Below, one piece after another: positions 23,311 through 36,105 of a DNA stretch of 44,029 nucleotides. Both the position numbers and the translations under genes were made by a program. Below the pieces are notes generated by a model that made no database searches, was not told the origin of the DNA, and was given only the letters and a program-made list of their open reading frames with translations. Source of the stretch: a virus; IMG/VR virus record IMGVR_UViG_3300030102_005211, positions 1 to 44,029 of that record. One strand, 5' to 3'. Position 1 is the stretch's first letter, and each line of letters opens with the position of its first letter.

Positions 23311-26300
23311 ATGACAGATCAAAGCACTACACCTACCACACCTTCGTTTGTCGAAACGCCCTATAGTGAATGGGCATCTACTAATGTCTACGAAGACCCT
23401 ATAGAGAGTTATGGTAGGTATGCTGAACATGTGAGGAAAGAATATTTAGGTGCGGGTAAATACACAGAGCAAGTCGAACAAGAATTATCCTACAACGTAG
23501 CCGCCACATTATCTGAGCAAGGATTTCTTACCGCTGACAATCAGGAACAAGTAGCCGCGAGGCTTGATAGCTTTGGAAAGCCTGATCTTTTGGCACAAGC
23601 CAAACAACTGATAGAGAACCCTTCTGTCGGTGTAGTTAGTTTGCCAGATGCAGTCCTCTTGGAAAAAGCCAAGCAAGAGGGACGTTCGTTGGCTTCCATT
23701 AGAGAAGACGCAGGTCAAGATTTAAAAAAACTTAGCGAGTTCGTCACTGGCAGTGAACTTGGGGAAGAGTTTAGTGAAGAGGCTATTACGGAGGCACGGG
23801 AAGCTGTTCGCAACGTAAGTCAAAAATTGTACACAGAGTTGTATAAGAGGGGTGAGATCAACGCCGCTGTTTATGAAGACAAGGAAGGCAATGAAATATT
23901 TATTGGTGGCAGGATTCCGGCGGGCATGTCCGAAAAAGATGTGCTGGAACAATCTGCTGGATATGGTGTGCGACCACAGCATCTATTTAATTTGAGACAC
24001 CAGCGAAAGCAATTGCCGCATACTGGTAATTTGATGCGCCACGAAGTTCAAGAACGTCAATTAGCGCAGGTAGAAGTTGAAAGCATTATAGCTAAGGCTA
24101 ATCCTAGAACGCAAGCTATGTTGTGGGGGTTAGCTAAAGAATACGGCACTAGAACAACTTGGGATTGGGGGGACAAGCTTAACCATTCATTGACTGATGG
24201 TTTTGGTGATGCGTTCAGGGCAGTAAGGGTGGGCTGGAATTGGCTGACGGGTGACACCGAAGAAGAGAACGAACTCCGTCGCAAAGACAGGTTGGATTTG
24301 TTGCGGGAAGAGTATGAGGCGGACACTGACCGTGCACGCAATGAACTTATACTAGATTTACAAAAGCAGACTAACTACAGCCGAGACGTATTAGAAGATG
24401 TAGTACACGACATAACAGTCAAGTACGCCTATGAGGGGGACAGGAAAAATAAGGTGTCCCCATTTTTAAGGTATACCGACAACGAGGACGAACTTGGGCA
24501 GAACGTACACAAGACAAGATACAATGGGGCTTTTGTGGCGGAACAGTTGTCGCTACTGCCTAAAAAGTTTAGCCAAGCATTAGACCAAGCTGGACTCTCA
24601 GCAGAGCAAAAGGAGTTCGCAGAATCCCAGCGGCAGTTTGCAGTCGCAAATAATTTTGAACGGGCAAGCAATGCTTTATTTAAAGACGATGGGTTGTCCG
24701 AAGAATGGGGTGAGTATCTTTTGGCGGGGAGGCACAAAGGACTTACTAATAGTCAAATCCTAGAGGGCTTTGCCGAGGATGCCGACTTCAGTAAAGTGTG
24801 GCACCGCATAAGCGGTGTGGGTAGCTCCATATGGGAAGGCATAACTTCTATTGTTTATGGTGTAGCCGCCGCTTTTGAGAGTGAGTGGGGGCAAAAGGGG
24901 CTAGTCTCTATCCAAGAAAATAATGCACACGCTCGCCAAGTCGCTTCGATTTTTGGGATGGAGATGGGGGCTGGGCAAGACTTCATGGAAGCAATTGCCC
25001 CCATGATGGCTGATGCCACCCTGACCGCAGTACTCACAGCACTTACTGTCCCGACAGCAGGGACAAGCACTGCCGCCGCCGCTGGGTATTTAGGCGCAAA
25101 GACGACAGCAACAGCGTCCGCGAGAGCAATTATTTCCGCAGGGTTTAGAGGGTCACTAAAGCTAACTGGCAAGGAAACTGTAGAAGAAGCGGCTGAAAGA
25201 ATATTTAAGGGGGGAGTGCTCAAAGGGGCGACTAAAGAAAGGACTCTCAGCATTATTAAGGCATACAACGGACAGCTAGCAAAAAAACTTGGCATTGGTG
25301 CCGCTTCCTTTATCCCTGCCGCCACTAGGTCTGGCGCGAATACGTATGGCGCGGTTTTTAAAACCGTAGAAGATGACTTAACGCTAAAGCATAAAAACGA
25401 GGATGGCACATGGGAAGAGGGGTGGAGTGAAGAGCGTGTAAAAACAGAGGCGCATGATGCGGCTCTGGGAGGTGCGATAACTGGGGGTATAATAACGGGT
25501 GTGCTCACAGCAGGGATGGGGGCAATGGGTAAAGGTGGATTGGAGTCATCGTTCCTAAAAGGCATGAGCTTTAGGCAAGTCCACCTTATAAAATCAAACA
25601 TACTGGGCAGGAACGTAGGCAAGAAAGTATTCCGAGATTTACTTGCTAAGTCTCTCAGCAAAATCACTAGGAAACATTTTTTGGTGGAAGCCCCAACAGG
25701 TTTCCTAAAGAGCGCGTTGCACGAGGCTGTAGAAGAGGGTCTGGATGAGTTCTTCAATACTCTTGTAACAGATGCCTATACAAACGAAAACACCTCCATG
25801 TTTGATAGGCTAATACAAACGTGGCACGGTTTTGTGCTAGGTGCCGCTATGGGCGGGGCAGGAAATTTAGTCAGCAAAGCCGCAAAAAATATAGCCCCAT
25901 CCAGATTTCTAGATCGGTCTGCCGCCGCTCGCATGGAGCGAATGGTTTTCGAGCAGTATGAAAAAGATGCCGCTGAACAGGGGGTCGAAGCATTAAGAGC
26001 GGCGGGTGCTCCAGTTACTGCCAATGAGGTGGAGCGGGTTGTCAGGCAATATGCCAGAGCCGAGCGACCCGCGCTTACAGAGCCAACACTTGGTGAACTT
26101 AGCGATGAAGTGGAACAAGACGTTTTAGATGACGCGCAAGACGTTGCGAGTGAGTCAACTGAAGAAGTTTCGCAACAACAGCTAAATGAAATTAACGCCG
26201 AGCTACAACTAAAGCTCAACCCCGAATCTGTTGATAGAGAAAACAAAAAAGTAGACACTGCCAGTAAACAGCAACCTTCAGTAGACCCTGCTGTTGCGGG

Positions 26301-29300
26301 CAGTGAAGCCGCTACCGAGATTGTATCCGACGAGGAGGGTGATGCTACAACGGGGTTGCAAAACATAACTGCCTCGCATGCCGCCAAGAATATAAATCTT
26401 GAGTTAAAGGAAGAGTATGAGCTTCTTTTGCAAGAGATAGACCAGAAAGAAGAAAAGTATCGTAAGATGGAACTCCGTCTTATGCAGACCTCTGACAGTG
26501 CACACGACAGATTCAAGAGGGAGATGTCCATTGCAGAAAGGGAAGGGAGAATTTTTTCCCCAGCCAAAGCTACATTTCTACGGAAAGAAGCATTGAAAAG
26601 GTTTGAGGAGAATGTAAAAGCACAACAAAAGTCTGACAAAAAAGGAGTGACTAGGGAAGATGCAGACGCATTAGACCTTTTGGCGGCGGGAGGTTACCCG
26701 CATAACCTAACTATTGAACAATTAGATAAGCTTGGTGTAGATACGGAGAACATAGATAAGGTATCACTACGCAGTTTGACAAAAGAACTTCTCAGGAAGG
26801 TGCGTAAACTGTTCCCAATTATCCCAAAGAGCATGCCTGAAGGGGGTGCTTCTATACCGAAAATATATGGTGGGACTGGTAGTGTGTATGTGTCTTCTGA
26901 CGGTAGGGGTGTCTTCAACAATGACCCCGTAGGCATGCTTACTTTACTAGAGAGTAATATCGCTATCCCCGTCTCACAAGACGTTATAAATGCTGGCAAT
27001 ATCAACCCAGCATTTAGGTTTACTAAGCGGGGGACTGAGTGGTTTGTGACCGACATAATGGTGCGCGAATCAGGCGGACTCGTATCCGCCACCACTGCAT
27101 TCAACAGGATCGGTGTCCTTGAGGAAGACTATACGCAGGTTTCTGAATTAGCTAACAAGCTAAATCAACTTAGAGAGTCAGTGACTATTGATGAGAACAT
27201 AAAAGTTCGTAACCCCTTTAACAATAAGAGTAAGATAAAACTCAGCACATTACTTAAACGCTCCAAAGACATTGGTATGTTGCGTAAGATTGTAGCTTCG
27301 GATTCTACACTTAATCTGAATAGGGATTTTGTGGAGTCTACTGCCATAGCCACAAGCTTAGACATGCAGATAGCCGTATATGAGTATGCAGTTAGTGTTA
27401 ATAATAACCAAGATGTCGGGCCAAATGTTTTCATCGTCCCAGAGATCCGCCGTAAGCACGGTAACTTTTTTGCAAAGCAACAAATCGCGAGAAAGAAAAA
27501 AGCTAAAAGGGATCTCGCCAGCATTATCAACCCAGACACCACCCTTCACAGGACTGATGGTTTTGATGTGGAAGTCAACGGAGAGGACAGTGCTTATGTT
27601 CCCCCAAGGGCAAACCCCTTGCCGCCCATACCGGAGAGTAAGATATCCGAATACATAGGCAACCTACATGATGTCGCTTCTGCCGCGCTTGAGTCCGATG
27701 CCGATATGCTCACTTCGGCCAAAAACATGTTGAACGAAGAGGTTCACGGTGGGAAAGACGTAACGTGGGACTACACCCCATCTCAAGTGTTCAATGAACT
27801 TGTGCATTTCTTCGCAAAGGGCAACTCCGTAGGCAATCAAAGAGCGGTTGATTTTCAAGCCATGCTCAAAGCGAACCGTTTCAACAACGCGCAGACTTTG
27901 AGGAAGTCGTTAAAACTTCTAGCACTTTCATCACCTACAATAGAATCCTCACCATCAAAAGATTCAGGTTATTTAGATCTTATACGCGAGGAGTTATCTC
28001 AATTGGTGGGGAGTGATTACGATGTAACTACCAATCATGCTATAGACTTCTTTAAAGACATACAGAAGGCAGTAAAAATATTTCACCAAAGAGCCGTTGT
28101 TAATGGCAGATCCATGAGGGTCAATGCCGCCATTAACCGAGCAGAGATAGATGAGCTTGGGTTGGTAGATGGAGATGCAGATTCAGTTATTACTGCGCTA
28201 GAAAAAATAGCCGCTGGGAAGAGTAGGGGTCAGGCAATCATAGCAAAACTATTACTCACTAATAAGGAGTTCATAAAGTCAGTTAAGTTCTTTATAACTG
28301 GATCTAGCGCAGAATATGCTGGGGCTTTTTATGTTGACGGCAATGGTGTACGCAATGTCGTAATTAACCCCGCTAGGAGTAGCGCAAGGGGAGTCGCTGA
28401 CACTTTACTTCATGAGTATATCCACGCATTTACGTCTAGGATTCTCGATACTCCTGCGGAAGCTAGGACAGTAGCAGAAAACAATGCCATCAGTAGAATA
28501 GATGGGCTAATTAAAATTCTACGCAGTCGTGCGGCTAGAGAAAATACTCCCGCAGGAGTGATGCACGGCTTGAAAAACACAGAAGAATTTATAGCCGCCC
28601 TACTTACGTCACCAAAATTTCAAGCCTATGTTAAAGGGATAAAAACATTACAGGGGGAAAGGAACTTCCTTCAGCGTGTCATTGACGCTATATCTAGATT
28701 GTTCGCAACACCTGATGCCGCTTTCCAACAAGCCATGCAGGATGCCTTGGATCTCACACAAAATTCAAGAGCCACTGAACCCGAAAATGAATCAGGGTTC
28801 GGGAATCAGGTTGCATCTAAAGTGAATGGTGCGCAAGTCAGGAGGTCTCGATTAGCTTCCAGTTTTGGTATGGCTGAAGACATAGCCGCGAACGAAGCTT
28901 TGGACAATGCGGCAGAGGAATACTTCGCATGGGCTGTGAGTTATGTCCCAGCAGAGATCAATGTCGTGATGGATAATTCTACCGATGTTATCGCAGAATG
29001 GGACGGGGCGACCCAATCAATAATATTCAACGGGAGAAGAGCCGCCGGAAAGATAAACAAAATAGTCGCGGAGGCTGGGGGTAAACCTATAAGGAGGGAG
29101 CACATTCTGGCGGCTATATTGAACGAGGAGATAGCACACTCCGCTTCCTTCGCTCAGTTAAGCCAAGCCCAGATTGACGCTATTATAGATGGGTTATCTA
29201 ATCAGGATGCAAGAAGAACTATTGAGCAGTATTACCCAGAGAATGAGAGGGCAGATGCCATAGCCAGATTGGAGAGTGAGGATGCCGATGTGTCTAGAGC

Positions 29301-32300
29301 AGAAAAGTTTATTCTTGCCGAAGAAGGTCTACGCATCCACGCGCAAAAAGTCTTGCGGGGTGCTGAGACAAATGAACAGATTAATTTCTTGCTGGAGAAC
29401 CCAAGTCTTATAGAAACCTTTAAACAGTATCTCAAGAATTTCCTTACCAAGATAACGTATCACCGCGAACTCAAAGATGTCTCCCCTGAGATGAGGAATG
29501 CGGTTAACAGTATCGTCAAAGAAATACGTGCGATGGAGATGCGCTATCGCCTATCTCCTAATGGAATTCATTTTGACATAAACAACCCCGAAGCGGCGTT
29601 ACAGCAGTTGTTAAAACAGGTGGATATGCGTAATTCTGCCGTCCTCGACCAAGACGAAATGGAAGATTTAGGGGAGGGTGTTGACTCACCTACACTACAA
29701 TCTAGGTGGGGGGCAGACGCTGGGACTGATCTGTCGATGGATAGCTTCAAAGTAAACGCTTACCCCCAAGAATTGAGGTTATTTAAAACTAAAGAAGGCA
29801 AACTTAAAGGTGCTCCCCCTCAAGTTAAGTCTAGTCAGGATGTAACCAAGTTGATGACTAGGCTTAAAAAGCTAACTATTGAAGGTTCTGTTGGTAGGTA
29901 TTGGTATGAGGATGCCGCTAAAAAAATACTAGAGATAACTAATGGTGATGTTGTCGAAGCAGAGAAATTTATCGCACTACTAGCAATCTACTCACCACAA
30001 ACTGGGGTAGAAGTTAATACTTATTTTGCTGTTCGAGCATACGAACAACACGCAAATGGGGTTAGCCGTGAAGACTATGGCGTAAAGACCCGTGTTCAGG
30101 ACGATAAAGCAATAGCGGTTCTATATGACGGGAAACCTTGGGCGGGGAGAAAGACAGACAACTTCTACAAGAACTTAATGTTCCACATAGTTTCTGAAGC
30201 ATCCCCCGATCAGTTAGCGTCAATGCAAATTGATGACGCTTTTTTGAAAGACCTACAACAACCTGTCACCGTGGACATGTGGGTTTACCGTGCGTTGGGT
30301 TACGACACGATTGGTTTAACGGATGCAAAGGGACAAGGTGCTTTTGGTTTTTCTGAAAAGCTAATTAATAGGTTAGCATATGCGTTGAATGAAAACCTTC
30401 CAGTAGGAGCAGACCCATATCAAGCGCACCAGATACAAGCTATGATTTGGACAGCTATTAAAGCACGTTCAGAACAAAAGGATGTTAAGAAAAAGACAGA
30501 AGCTCAGAGTATTAAAGCAGGTGATCTAGTATACAAGACAGGCGCAAAGGGCAAGAGGGTCAGAACATTCCCTAGCAAAGAAGCGGAGCGCAAGCACCAA
30601 CTTCGTTGGACAAGAAACGCGCTTGCCGCAGAAGGGGTAGACTTCATCGAAGCATCGCGTTCGTTTGATTACTTCGTCAACTCGATGGGACTCACAGCAA
30701 CGTGGGAAGTTATCGCGTCTGAGGAAACAGAGATCGGCAAAAGACTTGCGGCTATGTCTCTTGAAGAGAAGATGGCATTCACAGAACAGGCTATGCAACT
30801 TATTGTAGACCCAACTACTGGTGAGGACACTCTCGCCAGAGATTTGGGGATAGCAATATCCACAGCTAGGATGTCTATGGGTGGTTATGCTGGTGGTGTA
30901 ACCCCGAATGTGTTGTCCACGCTTTACCCTAACAAACCATCGGGTGAATACGATGATGACGCAATTCGCGCTTACGCCAGAGCACTCCAGTTCATATTTA
31001 TGCAAGATGCTGTGCCGTGGGTAAGGTATGTGAAGTCCAACAATCAAGACGTTCACTACAGGGTCATCAGAGATGGCAAGGCAATCCAAGGTGGTGCGAA
31101 ACTTGCCACTCAAGAAGAAGCACAGAGGTTGTCCCAAGAAAAGAACGCTAAGATTGACGCACCTCAAGTTGTTAAAGTTGAGGGTGGTTACCAGATCCTT
31201 AATTCTGAAGGCAGTCCTTACAAACTTAAAAGTAAGCAGACCAAGAAGATGGAAGAAGTTCCTATCTTCAAACCAGACGAAGACACTTTAAGAAGTGAGC
31301 ATCAAGATGACGACGGCAATTTTGAGGATGGTTGGGACGAAGCAAGAGTTCTTAAAGAAGCAGACAGTAATGCTCAATCAGCCGCCGAAGAGTTTGCCAA
31401 CAGAACCATACTAACTTATGTCGCGGGCAACGATCAGTCCCACGGATTTATTCTTACGTTCGACGAAGACTTAACCTCAGAAAAAGAACAAGAGATACAA
31501 GACACCTTGGGTGAAATACACCCAGACTTAGGGTTTACAAAGATAGACAGTAACCAAGTTACTGTGATTAACTTTAAGATTGACTATAAAGACATGCTCC
31601 CTGAGTTGACAGACGGAGCGTTTGCAACCAAACTAGCAGAAAAATATGAAAAAGAAGCAACCTTTGAAAAAATCGCAACCGTTGGAGAATACGGATACCA
31701 CGACTGGAACTCCGACCCAGAGGGAGATGTCATCCTTTCCCTCAGCCCCAGATTCACACCCGATATTCAAGAGGGGGTTCGCAATCGGAGGGAGAGGTTT
31801 CTCCAGATCTCGTCGGACACAGAAGGAAGAGTAACCCCAAGGTTACAATCCCGCTTCGGTGCTGACTTTGTTCTCTCTAAACTAAACAAAGCCGAGCAAG
31901 ATCAACTGGGTGGTCAGAGAATGACTCCCACAGGGAAACCTATGACGGGGACTGTCGTATCTAAGCAGAACATTGCAAAGATTTGGCAACAAGGTTTTGA
32001 GAAAAGCAAAAGACGATACGACAAAGCTAAAGAGAGGTTAGAGGAAGATGGTATTTATCTTCCTGAACTTACCATTGATAGGTATGCGCCCACTCCCGCA
32101 TCCACCTTAGAGTTATTTAAGTTGCCTGATATCGCCCAATGGCATTCTGACATGGCGAACTTTGTAATACCGGAAGGATACGACACAATCGCTTTCGTCC
32201 CTTGCGCGGCTACTAAACCTTGGTGTGGGGCTACAGATGCAAAGACTTTGCAGAGCAAAGCGCACCGTATGCTATACCCATCCTATAATCGGATAAGGGA

Positions 32301-35300
32301 GATGTTTGATGATGGGGCAGTAGGAAAGAATTTCAAAAGGGTTTACTTTGTAACAATCTCAGAACCGTTAGGTGTTGTCCCACAAGACAGGTGGCACAAC
32401 TTCCCGACCTATGATAACTCAGGACTGTTCACCGATGCTTCCCAACAGTCAGGGTTCTCTACTCAATACTGGTTGGATCTTCCGAAGGACAAAGGGGGAA
32501 CAGGAAGCAAACAATTACTTCCGTTCGACGAAAAAGCATTCGATCAAGCGATAGACACACTAGGCGAAGTTATCTCAAACTTTGTGCAGACAAATAAAAA
32601 GAACAACCCCAACTTGAATGTCATCAGCTTTGTTAAAGACGATAAGACAAAAGGTTCGCATGAGTTAATGGTGGAGTCCGCTTCAAAGTTTGCAGGGCAA
32701 GATATTGTCCCTGCGCAAAACAACTATGCCAAACGTGCTGAGTCGGGAACAGCACCTGAAGCTCTATTGAAAACAGTTTTGGGACTTGAAGGGCAGGTAG
32801 AATACGACCCCAATTTTGTGGTTGATCGGGCGCAGATAATAGCTAAGTCGCCACTTCCCACACAACCGAGGTTACAGTCCCGATATGGTGCGGGTTCTTA
32901 TATCCCTTCTGAGCTTGATGCGGATTCGGTTGACTTCAGTAGCTGGATCGAAACCCTTGAAATACCATTAATGGGGGTAGGCACATACAAGAGTCCTTCT
33001 AAAATGTGGAGGATGTTCACAGGGTATGCTGACCGCGATATCATGCGCTTTAAAGAAGAGCGTGACGCTTTCATTAGCACAGCAAAAAAGAGGGTAGAAG
33101 AATTTAAGGAAAAGCACGACAGGATAATTAAAGAAGAAGAGAAGGAAAGAAACATTACCATACCCCCAGAACTTATCTCAAGGGCATCAGGTTCAAACCG
33201 TGGGTCGCAGTTGTCGGATGCACAGCTAGAGTCTGTTGAAGCACAATTCAATAAGGAGCGATCAGCCGCAAACAGGGAGGCAGACCTAAAAGTTAGGGAG
33301 AGTAAACTAGCCTTGGCTGAGTCTAATAAGGTGGCTAATGCCAAAAAGCTTCGCCGCCAAAATCATGCAGAACTTATAGCAGACCGCAACGAGGCACTTA
33401 AAACATTGCTGATGGTTTCCCCTAAGGCACACGCGCTTATCCTAGATATGCGTAAGCTGACTGATGAACTATCCAAGATAGGTAACAGTTTATTCAGCGG
33501 GTTCTTAAATAGGAAAGAAGAATTTAAAGCTACGTTCGACGGTAACGGGGGGATATACATCACGAGAAGATACAGGATGTTTGAAGATGTTGATTTCATC
33601 AAACAGGTATCTGATGAGAAAGACCCGACATACGCAACAGAAAGGGAAGACGCAATAAACTTCTTTGCAGATCAGTATATGGATTACCACACGGCTGAAC
33701 TGATGAAGAACGAAATGCTGACCGAATCAGAAGCGCGGGCGCAGGTGGAAGCAGACCTTCATTCTAGGGGGTCTAATGCCCGCTCTATGGGGGATGACAT
33801 GATGAAGGAGTTCATTAATGCATATGAGAAGAATGCAGTTAAGCACGAACTTGAAATCTATGAAGGAGCAGATGGGGGGCGCAGTATAATTTTGAACGAG
33901 AAAAAGTTTAAGGCGGGGGCACTGAAAGCTCTAGTTAACAACCTCAATTCCAAGAAGAACATCCCATCCCCACTTAGGAAACTGCTTGGGGAATACGGTG
34001 ATGAAGCGGGCGTATCTAACATTAGCCACACCATACTCAAAACAGCGAGTATAATGGCTAACCAAGCTTTCTTTAATAGGGTTGTCGAGCACGGAACAAA
34101 AGGTAGTAAACCGTGGTTAATTACGCGGGAAGCGTATGTTGAAGATTTACAAAAGAAACCAGAGGACAGGCAGTATGCTAATTGGGACACCCTTAAAGGG
34201 GATGAGGGTGAGCTAGATTGGAATCCGTTGAAGGGTTACTATGCCTCACCGGAGGTGCTAAAAGACTTCCGAGACCTCATAGCCTTGAACAGAAAAGATG
34301 CTGTAACTAAAGATGTCACTAGCGACACTGAGTATCTCTTCCACAGCTTTGGAAAATTTTTACACAGAGCAACGGGACTATCACTTGCCGCGAAAACTTT
34401 AGGCTCAGTAGGTTTCTATGTCCGCAACATGATGGGCAATGCCATGTTCTTCGGACCGATGCAGGGATACTACGGAGGGATCGGCAAAATGTTTGGGGAG
34501 ATCGGTGGAGTGGCGGGGGTCTCCTCCGCGTTGCGTGAGAGTTCGATGATCGTCCGTGCGGCTAAAGGTTCTCTCGCTGAAATGAGTTCAGAGCTAAGTG
34601 TTCTAGAGACTTTGAATGTGTGGGGCGACGAGATGGAGGCGGGTGCTTTGCGTGACCTACTCACTGGCAAGATGACCACGGTAGATGTCGAAAACAAAAT
34701 AGCCAAACTTGCCAAAGACCACGGTGGGAAAGTTAAGAAGGGTTACGACAGTGCTGTTAAACTAGCTACCCGTCTCGCGTCTGCTATGGATGCGTATTAC
34801 AAAATAGGGTTATACGAATTTGAGTTGGAGACACTCATTGAAGCGGCTAAAGCTGATAGCCCTAACGGAAAATACAAAAGACTACTTAAAAGTGACGGGA
34901 CTCCTTCAACAGATATGAAGCGTGCCGCCGCAATCAAAGTTAAACGGACATCCCAGTCTTACAGTCAAGCACCCCCGCTAATAAAGGCACTGACAAGAAG
35001 CTCCGCAGGGTTACTTATTGCGCCGTATGTTCGTTTTGCGGCAGAGATTCCTAGAGTCATTGGCAACACTTACTCTTTGATGAAGGAAGAAAAGAATGAC
35101 CCTAACCCTGTGATTAGGAAAAGGGGTCTAAAAAGGAGGCGCGGAGTCATGGCGACTACTTCGTTCACTTTTGGTTTGCCAGTTCTCCTGAAATTACTCG
35201 CGGGCATTGGTGAAGACGAGGATGAAGCACTAAGAAAAGGGCTTCCCCCATACCTGAGAGGGCACACTTTCTTCTACATACCTTTAGGTGAAGATGACTT

Positions 35301-36105
35301 GTTCAGTTTAGATTTAACTTACCTTAATCCATTCTCCGTAGTAGCTGACCCCATAGCTCGCGCAGGTGAACAGTTGTTTAGGGGCGAACCATTGGCGGCT
35401 GTGTGGGCGTTGAGAAGATTGTTCGAGCCTTACGTCAGTGAACAGATACTCGCTAAATCTGTCACTCAGGTTGTATTCAACAAAAATGACTATGACCAGA
35501 AAATAATGTATGGAGATGATGTCGCTAAAAACATTAGCAGAGCCTTTCTCCACATCTGGGAGCAAGCATATGAGCCTAGATCCTTTACTAAGTTGAAGGC
35601 TTCCATAAACGCCGCATTGGGTGACTCCACAGAACACCTGTCCAGCCCACTTGGTGTGATATTCAGTGAGTTCCTGCCAGTGAAACCACACAAAGTAGAC
35701 TTATCTAAAAGCTTGAGAAACTATTTAAGAGAACACACGGGTGCATACAGAGACATCAACAATAAGTTTAATAGGCTACTCTCCAAAAACCTGACTGACG
35801 GGCAAATAGAAGATATCTACGACGACATTTTAAAAACAAGAGAGTTCCTGAACAATGACTTCCGCAAAACCCTGCGTGGATACAAGGGACTTGGAATGTC
35901 GTGGAGGGAAATACATGCGCAAGCAAAAGCGAAAGGCGTAAGTAAAGAAAGGCTAAAGCTTAATTACAGTGGGTTCATGAACCGTCCAGTGCTTTCCCCT
36001 TTCATTCAGGATAAACTCAAGGCACTTCCCCAAGGGAGGGACAGGATCAGGAAAGTTTCACGCTACGCGCAGAAATATAATAGATACATTTCACTAGACG
36101 ATTAA
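23311..36105 (+). CDS. Giant polyvalent/ejection protein, 4264 aa, multi-module
   Basis: One uninterrupted reading frame of 12.8 kb. Regions in order: 1-500 helical; 505-760 with hydrophobic Ala/Gly-rich segments (571-600, 719-742); 870-1650 helical/charged; 1650-1840 a zincin with H1701-E-Y-I-H1705 and a NTEEF helix near 1756-1760; 1847-2127 a second zincin-like region with EEIAH (1939-1943); 2128-2843 a module with WYED (2198-2201), SPQT (2228-2231) and D2322 in VDMWVYRALG; 2844-3186 a module with PCAATKP (2964-2970), SEPLGVVP (3017-3024) and YD (3034-3035); 3187-4264 a long helical region with hydrophobic stretches near 3691-3730 and 3946-3966. This is the architecture of phage polyvalent proteins with large-polyvalent-protein-associated domains, delivered with DNA and acting in the new host. 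The end resembles the LPD38 type. A motif R-L-[QA]-S-[RS]-[FWY]-G stands at the module borders. Confidence 0.8.
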   Translation: MTDQSTTPTTPSFVETPYSEWASTNVYEDPIESYGRYAEHVRKEYLGAGKYTEQVEQELSYNVAATLSEQGFLTADNQEQVAARLDSFGKPDLLAQAKQLIENPSVGVVSLPDAVLLEKAKQEGRSLASIREDAGQDLKKLSEFVTGSELGEEFSEEAITEAREAVRNVSQKLYTELYKRGEINAAVYEDKEGNEIFIGGRIPAGMSEKDVLEQSAGYGVRPQHLFNLRHQRKQLPHTGNLMRHEVQERQLAQVEVESIIAKANPRTQAMLWGLAKEYGTRTTWDWGDKLNHSLTDGFGDAFRAVRVGWNWLTGDTEEENELRRKDRLDLLREEYEADTDRARNELILDLQKQTNYSRDVLEDVVHDITVKYAYEGDRKNKVSPFLRYTDNEDELGQNVHKTRYNGAFVAEQLSLLPKKFSQALDQAGLSAEQKEFAESQRQFAVANNFERASNALFKDDGLSEEWGEYLLAGRHKGLTNSQILEGFAEDADFSKVWHRISGVGSSIWEGITSIVYGVAAAFESEWGQKGLVSIQENNAHARQVASIFGMEMGAGQDFMEAIAPMMADATLTAVLTALTVPTAGTSTAAAAGYLGAKTTATASARAIISAGFRGSLKLTGKETVEEAAERIFKGGVLKGATKERTLSIIKAYNGQLAKKLGIGAASFIPAATRSGANTYGAVFKTVEDDLTLKHKNEDGTWEEGWSEERVKTEAHDAALGGAITGGIITGVLTAGMGAMGKGGLESSFLKGMSFRQVHLIKSNILGRNVGKKVFRDLLAKSLSKITRKHFLVEAPTGFLKSALHEAVEEGLDEFFNTLVTDAYTNENTSMFDRLIQTWHGFVLGAAMGGAGNLVSKAAKNIAPSRFLDRSAAARMERMVFEQYEKDAAEQGVEALRAAGAPVTANEVERVVRQYARAERPALTEPTLGELSDEVEQDVLDDAQDVASESTEEVSQQQLNEINAELQLKLNPESVDRENKKVDTASKQQPSVDPAVAGSEAATEIVSDEEGDATTGLQNITASHAAKNINLELKEEYELLLQEIDQKEEKYRKMELRLMQTSDSAHDRFKREMSIAEREGRIFSPAKATFLRKEALKRFEENVKAQQKSDKKGVTREDADALDLLAAGGYPHNLTIEQLDKLGVDTENIDKVSLRSLTKELLRKVRKLFPIIPKSMPEGGASIPKIYGGTGSVYVSSDGRGVFNNDPVGMLTLLESNIAIPVSQDVINAGNINPAFRFTKRGTEWFVTDIMVRESGGLVSATTAFNRIGVLEEDYTQVSELANKLNQLRESVTIDENIKVRNPFNNKSKIKLSTLLKRSKDIGMLRKIVASDSTLNLNRDFVESTAIATSLDMQIAVYEYAVSVNNNQDVGPNVFIVPEIRRKHGNFFAKQQIARKKKAKRDLASIINPDTTLHRTDGFDVEVNGEDSAYVPPRANPLPPIPESKISEYIGNLHDVASAALESDADMLTSAKNMLNEEVHGGKDVTWDYTPSQVFNELVHFFAKGNSVGNQRAVDFQAMLKANRFNNAQTLRKSLKLLALSSPTIESSPSKDSGYLDLIREELSQLVGSDYDVTTNHAIDFFKDIQKAVKIFHQRAVVNGRSMRVNAAINRAEIDELGLVDGDADSVITALEKIAAGKSRGQAIIAKLLLTNKEFIKSVKFFITGSSAEYAGAFYVDGNGVRNVVINPARSSARGVADTLLHEYIHAFTSRILDTPAEARTVAENNAISRIDGLIKILRSRAARENTPAGVMHGLKNTEEFIAALLTSPKFQAYVKGIKTLQGERNFLQRVIDAISRLFATPDAAFQQAMQDALDLTQNSRATEPENESGFGNQVASKVNGAQVRRSRLASSFGMAEDIAANEALDNAAEEYFAWAVSYVPAEINVVMDNSTDVIAEWDGATQSIIFNGRRAAGKINKIVAEAGGKPIRREHILAAILNEEIAHSASFAQLSQAQIDAIIDGLSNQDARRTIEQYYPENERADAIARLESEDADVSRAEKFILAEEGLRIHAQKVLRGAETNEQINFLLENPSLIETFKQYLKNFLTKITYHRELKDVSPEMRNAVNSIVKEIRAMEMRYRLSPNGIHFDINNPEAALQQLLKQVDMRNSAVLDQDEMEDLGEGVDSPTLQSRWGADAGTDLSMDSFKVNAYPQELRLFKTKEGKLKGAPPQVKSSQDVTKLMTRLKKLTIEGSVGRYWYEDAAKKILEITNGDVVEAEKFIALLAIYSPQTGVEVNTYFAVRAYEQHANGVSREDYGVKTRVQDDKAIAVLYDGKPWAGRKTDNFYKNLMFHIVSEASPDQLASMQIDDAFLKDLQQPVTVDMWVYRALGYDTIGLTDAKGQGAFGFSEKLINRLAYALNENLPVGADPYQAHQIQAMIWTAIKARSEQKDVKKKTEAQSIKAGDLVYKTGAKGKRVRTFPSKEAERKHQLRWTRNALAAEGVDFIEASRSFDYFVNSMGLTATWEVIASEETEIGKRLAAMSLEEKMAFTEQAMQLIVDPTTGEDTLARDLGIAISTARMSMGGYAGGVTPNVLSTLYPNKPSGEYDDDAIRAYARALQFIFMQDAVPWVRYVKSNNQDVHYRVIRDGKAIQGGAKLATQEEAQRLSQEKNAKIDAPQVVKVEGGYQILNSEGSPYKLKSKQTKKMEEVPIFKPDEDTLRSEHQDDDGNFEDGWDEARVLKEADSNAQSAAEEFANRTILTYVAGNDQSHGFILTFDEDLTSEKEQEIQDTLGEIHPDLGFTKIDSNQVTVINFKIDYKDMLPELTDGAFATKLAEKYEKEATFEKIATVGEYGYHDWNSDPEGDVILSLSPRFTPDIQEGVRNRRERFLQISSDTEGRVTPRLQSRFGADFVLSKLNKAEQDQLGGQRMTPTGKPMTGTVVSKQNIAKIWQQGFEKSKRRYDKAKERLEEDGIYLPELTIDRYAPTPASTLELFKLPDIAQWHSDMANFVIPEGYDTIAFVPCAATKPWCGATDAKTLQSKAHRMLYPSYNRIREMFDDGAVGKNFKRVYFVTISEPLGVVPQDRWHNFPTYDNSGLFTDASQQSGFSTQYWLDLPKDKGGTGSKQLLPFDEKAFDQAIDTLGEVISNFVQTNKKNNPNLNVISFVKDDKTKGSHELMVESASKFAGQDIVPAQNNYAKRAESGTAPEALLKTVLGLEGQVEYDPNFVVDRAQIIAKSPLPTQPRLQSRYGAGSYIPSELDADSVDFSSWIETLEIPLMGVGTYKSPSKMWRMFTGYADRDIMRFKEERDAFISTAKKRVEEFKEKHDRIIKEEEKERNITIPPELISRASGSNRGSQLSDAQLESVEAQFNKERSAANREADLKVRESKLALAESNKVANAKKLRRQNHAELIADRNEALKTLLMVSPKAHALILDMRKLTDELSKIGNSLFSGFLNRKEEFKATFDGNGGIYITRRYRMFEDVDFIKQVSDEKDPTYATEREDAINFFADQYMDYHTAELMKNEMLTESEARAQVEADLHSRGSNARSMGDDMMKEFINAYEKNAVKHELEIYEGADGGRSIILNEKKFKAGALKALVNNLNSKKNIPSPLRKLLGEYGDEAGVSNISHTILKTASIMANQAFFNRVVEHGTKGSKPWLITREAYVEDLQKKPEDRQYANWDTLKGDEGELDWNPLKGYYASPEVLKDFRDLIALNRKDAVTKDVTSDTEYLFHSFGKFLHRATGLSLAAKTLGSVGFYVRNMMGNAMFFGPMQGYYGGIGKMFGEIGGVAGVSSALRESSMIVRAAKGSLAEMSSELSVLETLNVWGDEMEAGALRDLLTGKMTTVDVENKIAKLAKDHGGKVKKGYDSAVKLATRLASAMDAYYKIGLYEFELETLIEAAKADSPNGKYKRLLKSDGTPSTDMKRAAAIKVKRTSQSYSQAPPLIKALTRSSAGLLIAPYVRFAAEIPRVIGNTYSLMKEEKNDPNPVIRKRGLKRRRGVMATTSFTFGLPVLLKLLAGIGEDEDEALRKGLPPYLRGHTFFYIPLGEDDLFSLDLTYLNPFSVVADPIARAGEQLFRGEPLAAVWALRRLFEPYVSEQILAKSVTQVVFNKNDYDQKIMYGDDVAKNISRAFLHIWEQAYEPRSFTKLKASINAALGDSTEHLSSPLGVIFSEFLPVKPHKVDLSKSLRNYLREHTGAYRDINNKFNRLLSKNLTDGQIEDIYDDILKTREFLNNDFRKTLRGYKGLGMSWREIHAQAKAKGVSKERLKLNYSGFMNRPVLSPFIQDKLKALPQGRDRIRKVSRYAQKYNRYISLDD

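Follow-up and report, generated by a model that had tools for sequence, protein, structure and literature searches.

The 44,029-nucleotide window analysed here (IMG/VR record IMGVR_UViG_3300030102_005211) contains an open reading frame for a phage protein of 4264 aa, and raises the question of whether a short peptide that recurs along this chain marks sites at which it is cut into separate proteins. Phage proteins that run to several thousand residues are widespread in the family and are largely unexplained. A seam motif that is readable from the sequence would open module borders, predicted fragments and the processing mechanism to test in dozens of phages. The giant resembles polyvalent proteins in being very large and multidomain with exchangeable domains: modules are gained and lost among its homologues, which cover its entire length (Table 1).

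Table 1. Coordinates of the giant reading frame, its modules and its seam motifs in the window
Feature	Coordinates	Strand	Basis or remark
Giant ORF, polyvalent-type modular phage protein	23311..36105	+	Open frame, homologues throughout, mass 474.8 kDa
N-terminal region (residues 1-1440)	23311..27630	+	Without LQSR motif in the window's lineage
Zincin-like domain 1 (residues 1596-1800), HEYIH 1701-1705, third-ligand Glu E1759	28096..28710	+	Alignment, AF2
Seam motif 1, RLASSFG (residues 1847-1853), after zincin 1	28849..28869	+	Sequence, clade counterparts
Module M2 (residues 1854-2127), second zincin-like domain, NEEIAH replacing HEXXH	28870..29691	+	
Seam motif 2, TLQSRWG (residues 2128-2134)	29692..29712	+	
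Module M3 (residues 2135-2843), contains DUF7178	29713..31839	+	Pfam PF23802, E 2.5e-7
Seam motif 3, RLQSRFG (residues 2844-2850)	31840..31860	+	Absent along with M4 in L002
Module M4 (residues 2851-3186)	31861..32868	+	Weak DUF5591/ArcS-like similarity
Seam motif 4, RLQSRYG (residues 3187-3193), C-module seam	32869..32889	+	
C-terminal module (residues 3194-4264), the family's common module	32890..36102	+	Homologues

A recurring peptide between unlike modules

An initial annotation had placed four related heptapeptides exactly between unlike modules and had read them as candidate protease sites. All four are present in the reading frame, at residues 1847, 2128, 2844 and 3187, and are followed by Met, Ala, Ala and Ala, in agreement with the claim of Ala or Met at this position. 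The proposed consensus, R-L-[QA]-S-[RS]-[FWY]-G, describes the copies overall, except that site 2 begins with Thr rather than Arg. The aromatic residue is common to the window's four copies but is not essential, as homologues show V, I, L, H or Q. Care is needed in judging how far such a motif exceeds chance, because four-residue patterns alone are indistinguishable from noise: in a gapped-pattern scan with four residues fixed, the best random patterns were at least as rare as the motif. When all gapped patterns were scanned, P.LQSR.G was the only six-residue pattern family present three times (also as LQSR.GA), and neither 60 shuffles nor the unrelated giants that were scanned contained any six-residue pattern in three copies. 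The count of LQSR.G expected from composition is 0.004; for L.S.[FWY]G it is 0.13, and this pattern occurs nowhere else in the 4264-aa protein. The claim that the spacing is hard to explain by chance is borne out by these shuffles and by the concerted, lineage-specific changes described below.

Close homologues show that the motif sits between modules, as had been claimed. The nearest, L002 (a 4022-aa ORF, 59.8% identical), keeps RLATSIG, RLQSRVG and RLQSRYG and lacks exactly M4, from motif to motif, with one motif copy remaining. Added modules of ~300 and ~190 aa are found in L006 and L035, and each has LQSRxG copies of its own at its borders. At the C-module seam of six homologues, five of the six motif columns are invariant, against a mean identity of 16% in the linker before them. 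When different seams of one protein are compared, identity is 64% in the motif and 6-11% in the flanks. Counterparts of motif 1 read RLATSIG, RLASSIG or SLASLMG in the LQSR clade and RLSSGIQ or RLASGLG in the SGIT lineage. The AF2 model places motif 1 outside the fold of the zincin domain, in a stretch with pLDDT of about 50 or lower.

Motif copies within one gene differ at synonymous codon sites, so that constraint acts on the peptide, and no long DNA repeat was seen among the copies of one gene. At the LQS sites of the clade, Ser is always encoded by TCN, and hence the copies probably share descent, yet are kept as peptides. The DNA of motif 2 is nearly identical to that in L006, where a different 300-aa module starts with it.

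Several observations concern individual parts of these proteins. The giant of L002 has an extra insertion of ~100 residues in its N-terminal part (residues about 1090-1190), which carries no seam motif. M4 (31861-32868) shows weak similarity to DUF5591 and to the archaeosine synthase ArcS (E 0.001-0.013), and its AF2 model, built from three sequences only, is too poor to interpret (mean pLDDT 50). C-module homologues in Cellulophaga phages carry the annotation virion structural protein.

Lineage-specific seams and shared cassettes

Scans seeded with the C-module produced a set of about 85 distinct giants; a single scan of genome contigs yielded one relative. The search of these homologues for the motif showed that equivalent seams carry recurring, lineage-specific motifs. 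In full-length homologues at about 30% identity there is no LQSR and the equivalent seams read SGIT, mostly L.SGIT, which is found at seams five to seven times in full-length giants of this lineage, with one site near residue 885 within the N-terminal region. Elsewhere P.LETxxG recurs in L041, LESRFG in L193 and L112, VGTxFG in L068 (five times, p 7e-16) and RxTQAG in L145 (up to six times); the recurring seam peptides of other loci are TSFGD (L122), LQxRYG (L115), ATQFG (L124), L.SGLGP (L048), KFSIxxP (L186) and [LFY]SAP (L137, L169, L174). The scan of giants revealed no clear recurring motif in many distant members, and none was clear in L017-L028, distant giants sharing only DUF7178. We found no homologue in which the motif sits inside a folded domain, the situation that the initial annotation had named as incompatible with its reading.

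An unsupervised permutation test, in which each C-seam peptide was sought elsewhere in its own protein and in every other protein, gave recurrence in the own protein above all 20,000 permutations (p <= 5e-5; 86 giants). This test ignores relatedness, and motifs common to close relatives make it conservative. Breakpoints of pairwise homology, which are not independent of one another, fell within 30 residues of motif sites in 251 cases versus 119 expected. Outside the giants, the seam motif was absent from the other ORFs of the 14 loci tested, save for one antisense chance hit.

Modules shared between lineages carry the seams of the giant in which they are found. M4 is 44-46% identical in L145, where both borders read RETQAG, and 39-43% identical in L178, with borders RHTQAG and RYTQAG; the BLAST values are 46% and 43%. 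The SGIT lineage has a counterpart of M3 at 60-63% identity, flanked there by SGIT. Between L137 and L011, 48 of the last 59 residues of a shared tail are identical and are followed by FSAP in the one and RSGIT in the other. A tail element ending IPLSxRF[DN] is found in many lineages and, where a motif is defined, that giant's motif comes next; in more than ten giants, this PLSxRF tail stands directly before the motif of the respective lineage. As the seams change in concert and cassettes bear the motif of the host giant, the seams appear to be under selection and to be read by a factor matched to the lineage. The switch of motif between lineages amounts to a natural experiment, which points to a single reader for all the seams in one protein. 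On these sequence comparisons, there is strong support for the view that the seam motif behaves as a series of sites recognised by a single factor, and the pattern is best explained by one such factor per lineage reading every seam of a giant.

Several modules close, just before the seam motif, with a longer version of the tail, IKSxxPVTRDxxGNxIPLSxRF[DN] (e.g., in L011, L115, L137 and L145); no PLSxRF tail domain was found in named phages. In Pseudoalteromonas phage vB_Pun_Y3 (L003, 15470-18553), the C-module homologue is a separate gene adjoining the giant, and a seam in this family can thus equal a gene border. The giant of L013 has two SGIT sites 13 residues apart at residues 3095-3115, with no module between them (KLASGITPERVGEQIASGIT); the paired sites look as if a cassette had been lost or emptied.

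Proposed cleavage, the putative protease and alternative readings

The best explanation, which we consider somewhat probable, is that the seams of this polyprotein-like phage giant carry repeated processing sites, at which a lineage-matched protease cuts. The giant would be made as one chain, such that all modules are handled together, and would presumably be packaged into the virion and then injected. A single protease, with a specificity matched to the lineage motif, would cut the seams and release the modules; the window's giant would yield pieces of about 204, 32, 80, 38 and 121 kDa. Recognition of the motif may mean cleavage either in the virion or after injection, and the conserved motif core does not point to a single scissile bond. 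A broader proposal, on which we are evenly divided, is that tailed phages run true polyprotein systems, in which interchangeable cassettes are joined by cleavage sites that are specific to the lineage and evolve together with one protease, and in which an incoming cassette must acquire the seam of its host giant.

The zincin-like domains are candidates for this protease. H1701, E1702 and H1705 are conserved in the alignment of domain 1 together with the downstream E1759, which gives a complete HEXXH with third ligand, and the AF2 model of this domain is mostly at pLDDT > 85. A Foldseek search with the zincin model gave no match at E <= 0.001, and in VIA zincin metallopeptidases lead the list with Z up to 8.0, a value within the range quoted as common background. 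Despite the conserved zincin-like HEXXH...E, the named polyvalent peptidase models of Pfam and NCBIfam had no match in the giant. Many zincins favour a hydrophobic residue at P1', and a hydrophobic residue sits one or two places after the motif's conserved Ser/Thr. The second zincin-like domain, of the M2 type, has a conserved [NSD]EExxH and is seen in many loci. The RxTQAG lineage is without zincin-like domain 1 and has HEXXH in the second domain instead. In L061, L063, L066 and L069 the arrangement is reversed, with EEXXH in domain 1 and HEXXH in M2.

In L137, L169 and L174, both zincin-like domains have EEXXH, there is no other HEXXH, and the recurring [LFY]SAP seams are kept; the canonical own zincin is thus not always the reader. 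A rule by which a dead zincin means no motif, suggested by L059, L060 and L053, is ruled out by these three loci. Motif recurrence shows a weak association with an intact HEXXH (p = 0.04, uncorrected for relatedness). The initial annotation is thus partly supported: the module borders and recognition by one factor agree with it, and a protease is the best inference for that factor, but its suggestion that the giant's own zincin (H1701/H1705) does the cutting is not established. The likeliest cutter would be one or other of the zincin-like domains, and the own HEXXH zincin is a plausible but unproven candidate.

A separate phage protease, e.g., a prohead protease, might cut the seams rather than the giant's zincin, a reading that differs from ours in the cutter and that we regard as possible but doubtful. 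Such an enzyme would account for the EEXXH lineages that still bear motifs and has a parallel in P1, in which processing of the major capsid protein and DarA is predicted to be the work of Pro (PMC9024508, PMC12810830). However, no other protease was recognised among the window ORFs tested, although most structural genes are unidentifiable. A shared head protease should cut other proteins too, and the lack of the motif in the other ORFs tested speaks against such a general enzyme. It is unlikely that the chain stays uncut and that the motif serves for docking or cargo loading, each copy binding a lineage-specific partner (the capsid shell, the portal or another internal protein) and pinning the chain at each module during packaging or ejection. 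This reading also predicts the concerted, lineage-matched change and the seam position, and capsid-targeting sequences exist: in P1 DarB, the N-terminal 30 residues are enough (PMC9024508). Yet the P1 signal is terminal, whereas the motif was never terminal in the proteins read and always lay between modules; the closely paired L013 sites, with nothing between them, resemble an emptied cassette.

Two further readings give the motif no role in the protein. If the copies derived from one DNA repeat that enables in-frame cassette swaps, one would expect cassettes to be gained and lost exactly from motif to motif, as they are; the uniform TCN codons, which fit common descent, and the motif 2 DNA shared with the start of a different module in L006 point the same way. 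We nevertheless judge this recombination origin very unlikely, as the copies in one gene differ synonymously and form no long DNA repeat, the peptide is fixed while the preceding linker diverges, and shared cassettes bear a different peptide in another lineage. It is scarcely credible that the motif is nothing but the usual composition of linkers at domain ends, with a resemblance due to chance. S, G, P and A abound in linkers, and chance does produce isolated four-residue repeats that are about as rare, but the six-residue repeat never appeared in shuffles, and the lineage-specific repeats and the permutation test already contradict such a reading from the homologue side.

Relation to known systems

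Autoproteolytic release by zincin-like domains has been proposed for polyvalent proteins, with an analogy drawn to RNA-virus polyproteins, by Iyer et al. 2017 (PMC5512222). The giant resembles the proteins described there in its size, its many domains and the zincin-like domains embedded in it. It differs in its recurring, lineage-specific motif common to all seams, of which term searches of that article turned up no mention. Self-cutting by polyvalent zincins has thus already been proposed; what the giants add is the lineage-specific seam motif, which turns this general suggestion into site-level predictions. No published description of such a motif was found in the open-access literature, to which the search was confined. 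According to PMC5512222, the N4 virion RNA polymerase, which bears the same kind of domain, is packaged uncut, and this counts against the processing reading.

In P1, DarA and the major capsid protein are processed (PMC9024508), as far as is known by the prohead protease Pro (PMC12810830); the major capsid protein is cut between E120 and S121, and its N-terminal trimming is attributed to Pro. These are head internal or capsid proteins cut during assembly; unlike the seams, however, the P1 cuts are N-terminal trimming and involve no repeated seam motif.

The polyproteins of eukaryotic RNA viruses carry a repeated short cleavage motif between unlike modules and encode the protease in the chain. 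The giant resembles them in motif layout; there is no homology, and its own cleavage and protease are putative.

PLxRFG/tail-700 (NF032893) is a name for very large phage proteins whose letters are superficially similar to the seam motif. We rejected it as the same motif, since a search with NF032893 matched nothing in the window at E <= 10, and since PLxRFG belongs to the C-terminal part of tail-700 proteins. In Klebsiella phage LASTA, PLARFG lies in the C-terminal part of the protein and, unlike the window motif, not at a module seam. In the giant of this phage (L036), YSV and YSM at residues 3278 and 3478 flank a zincin-like module and may be an analogous seam motif of another giant family.
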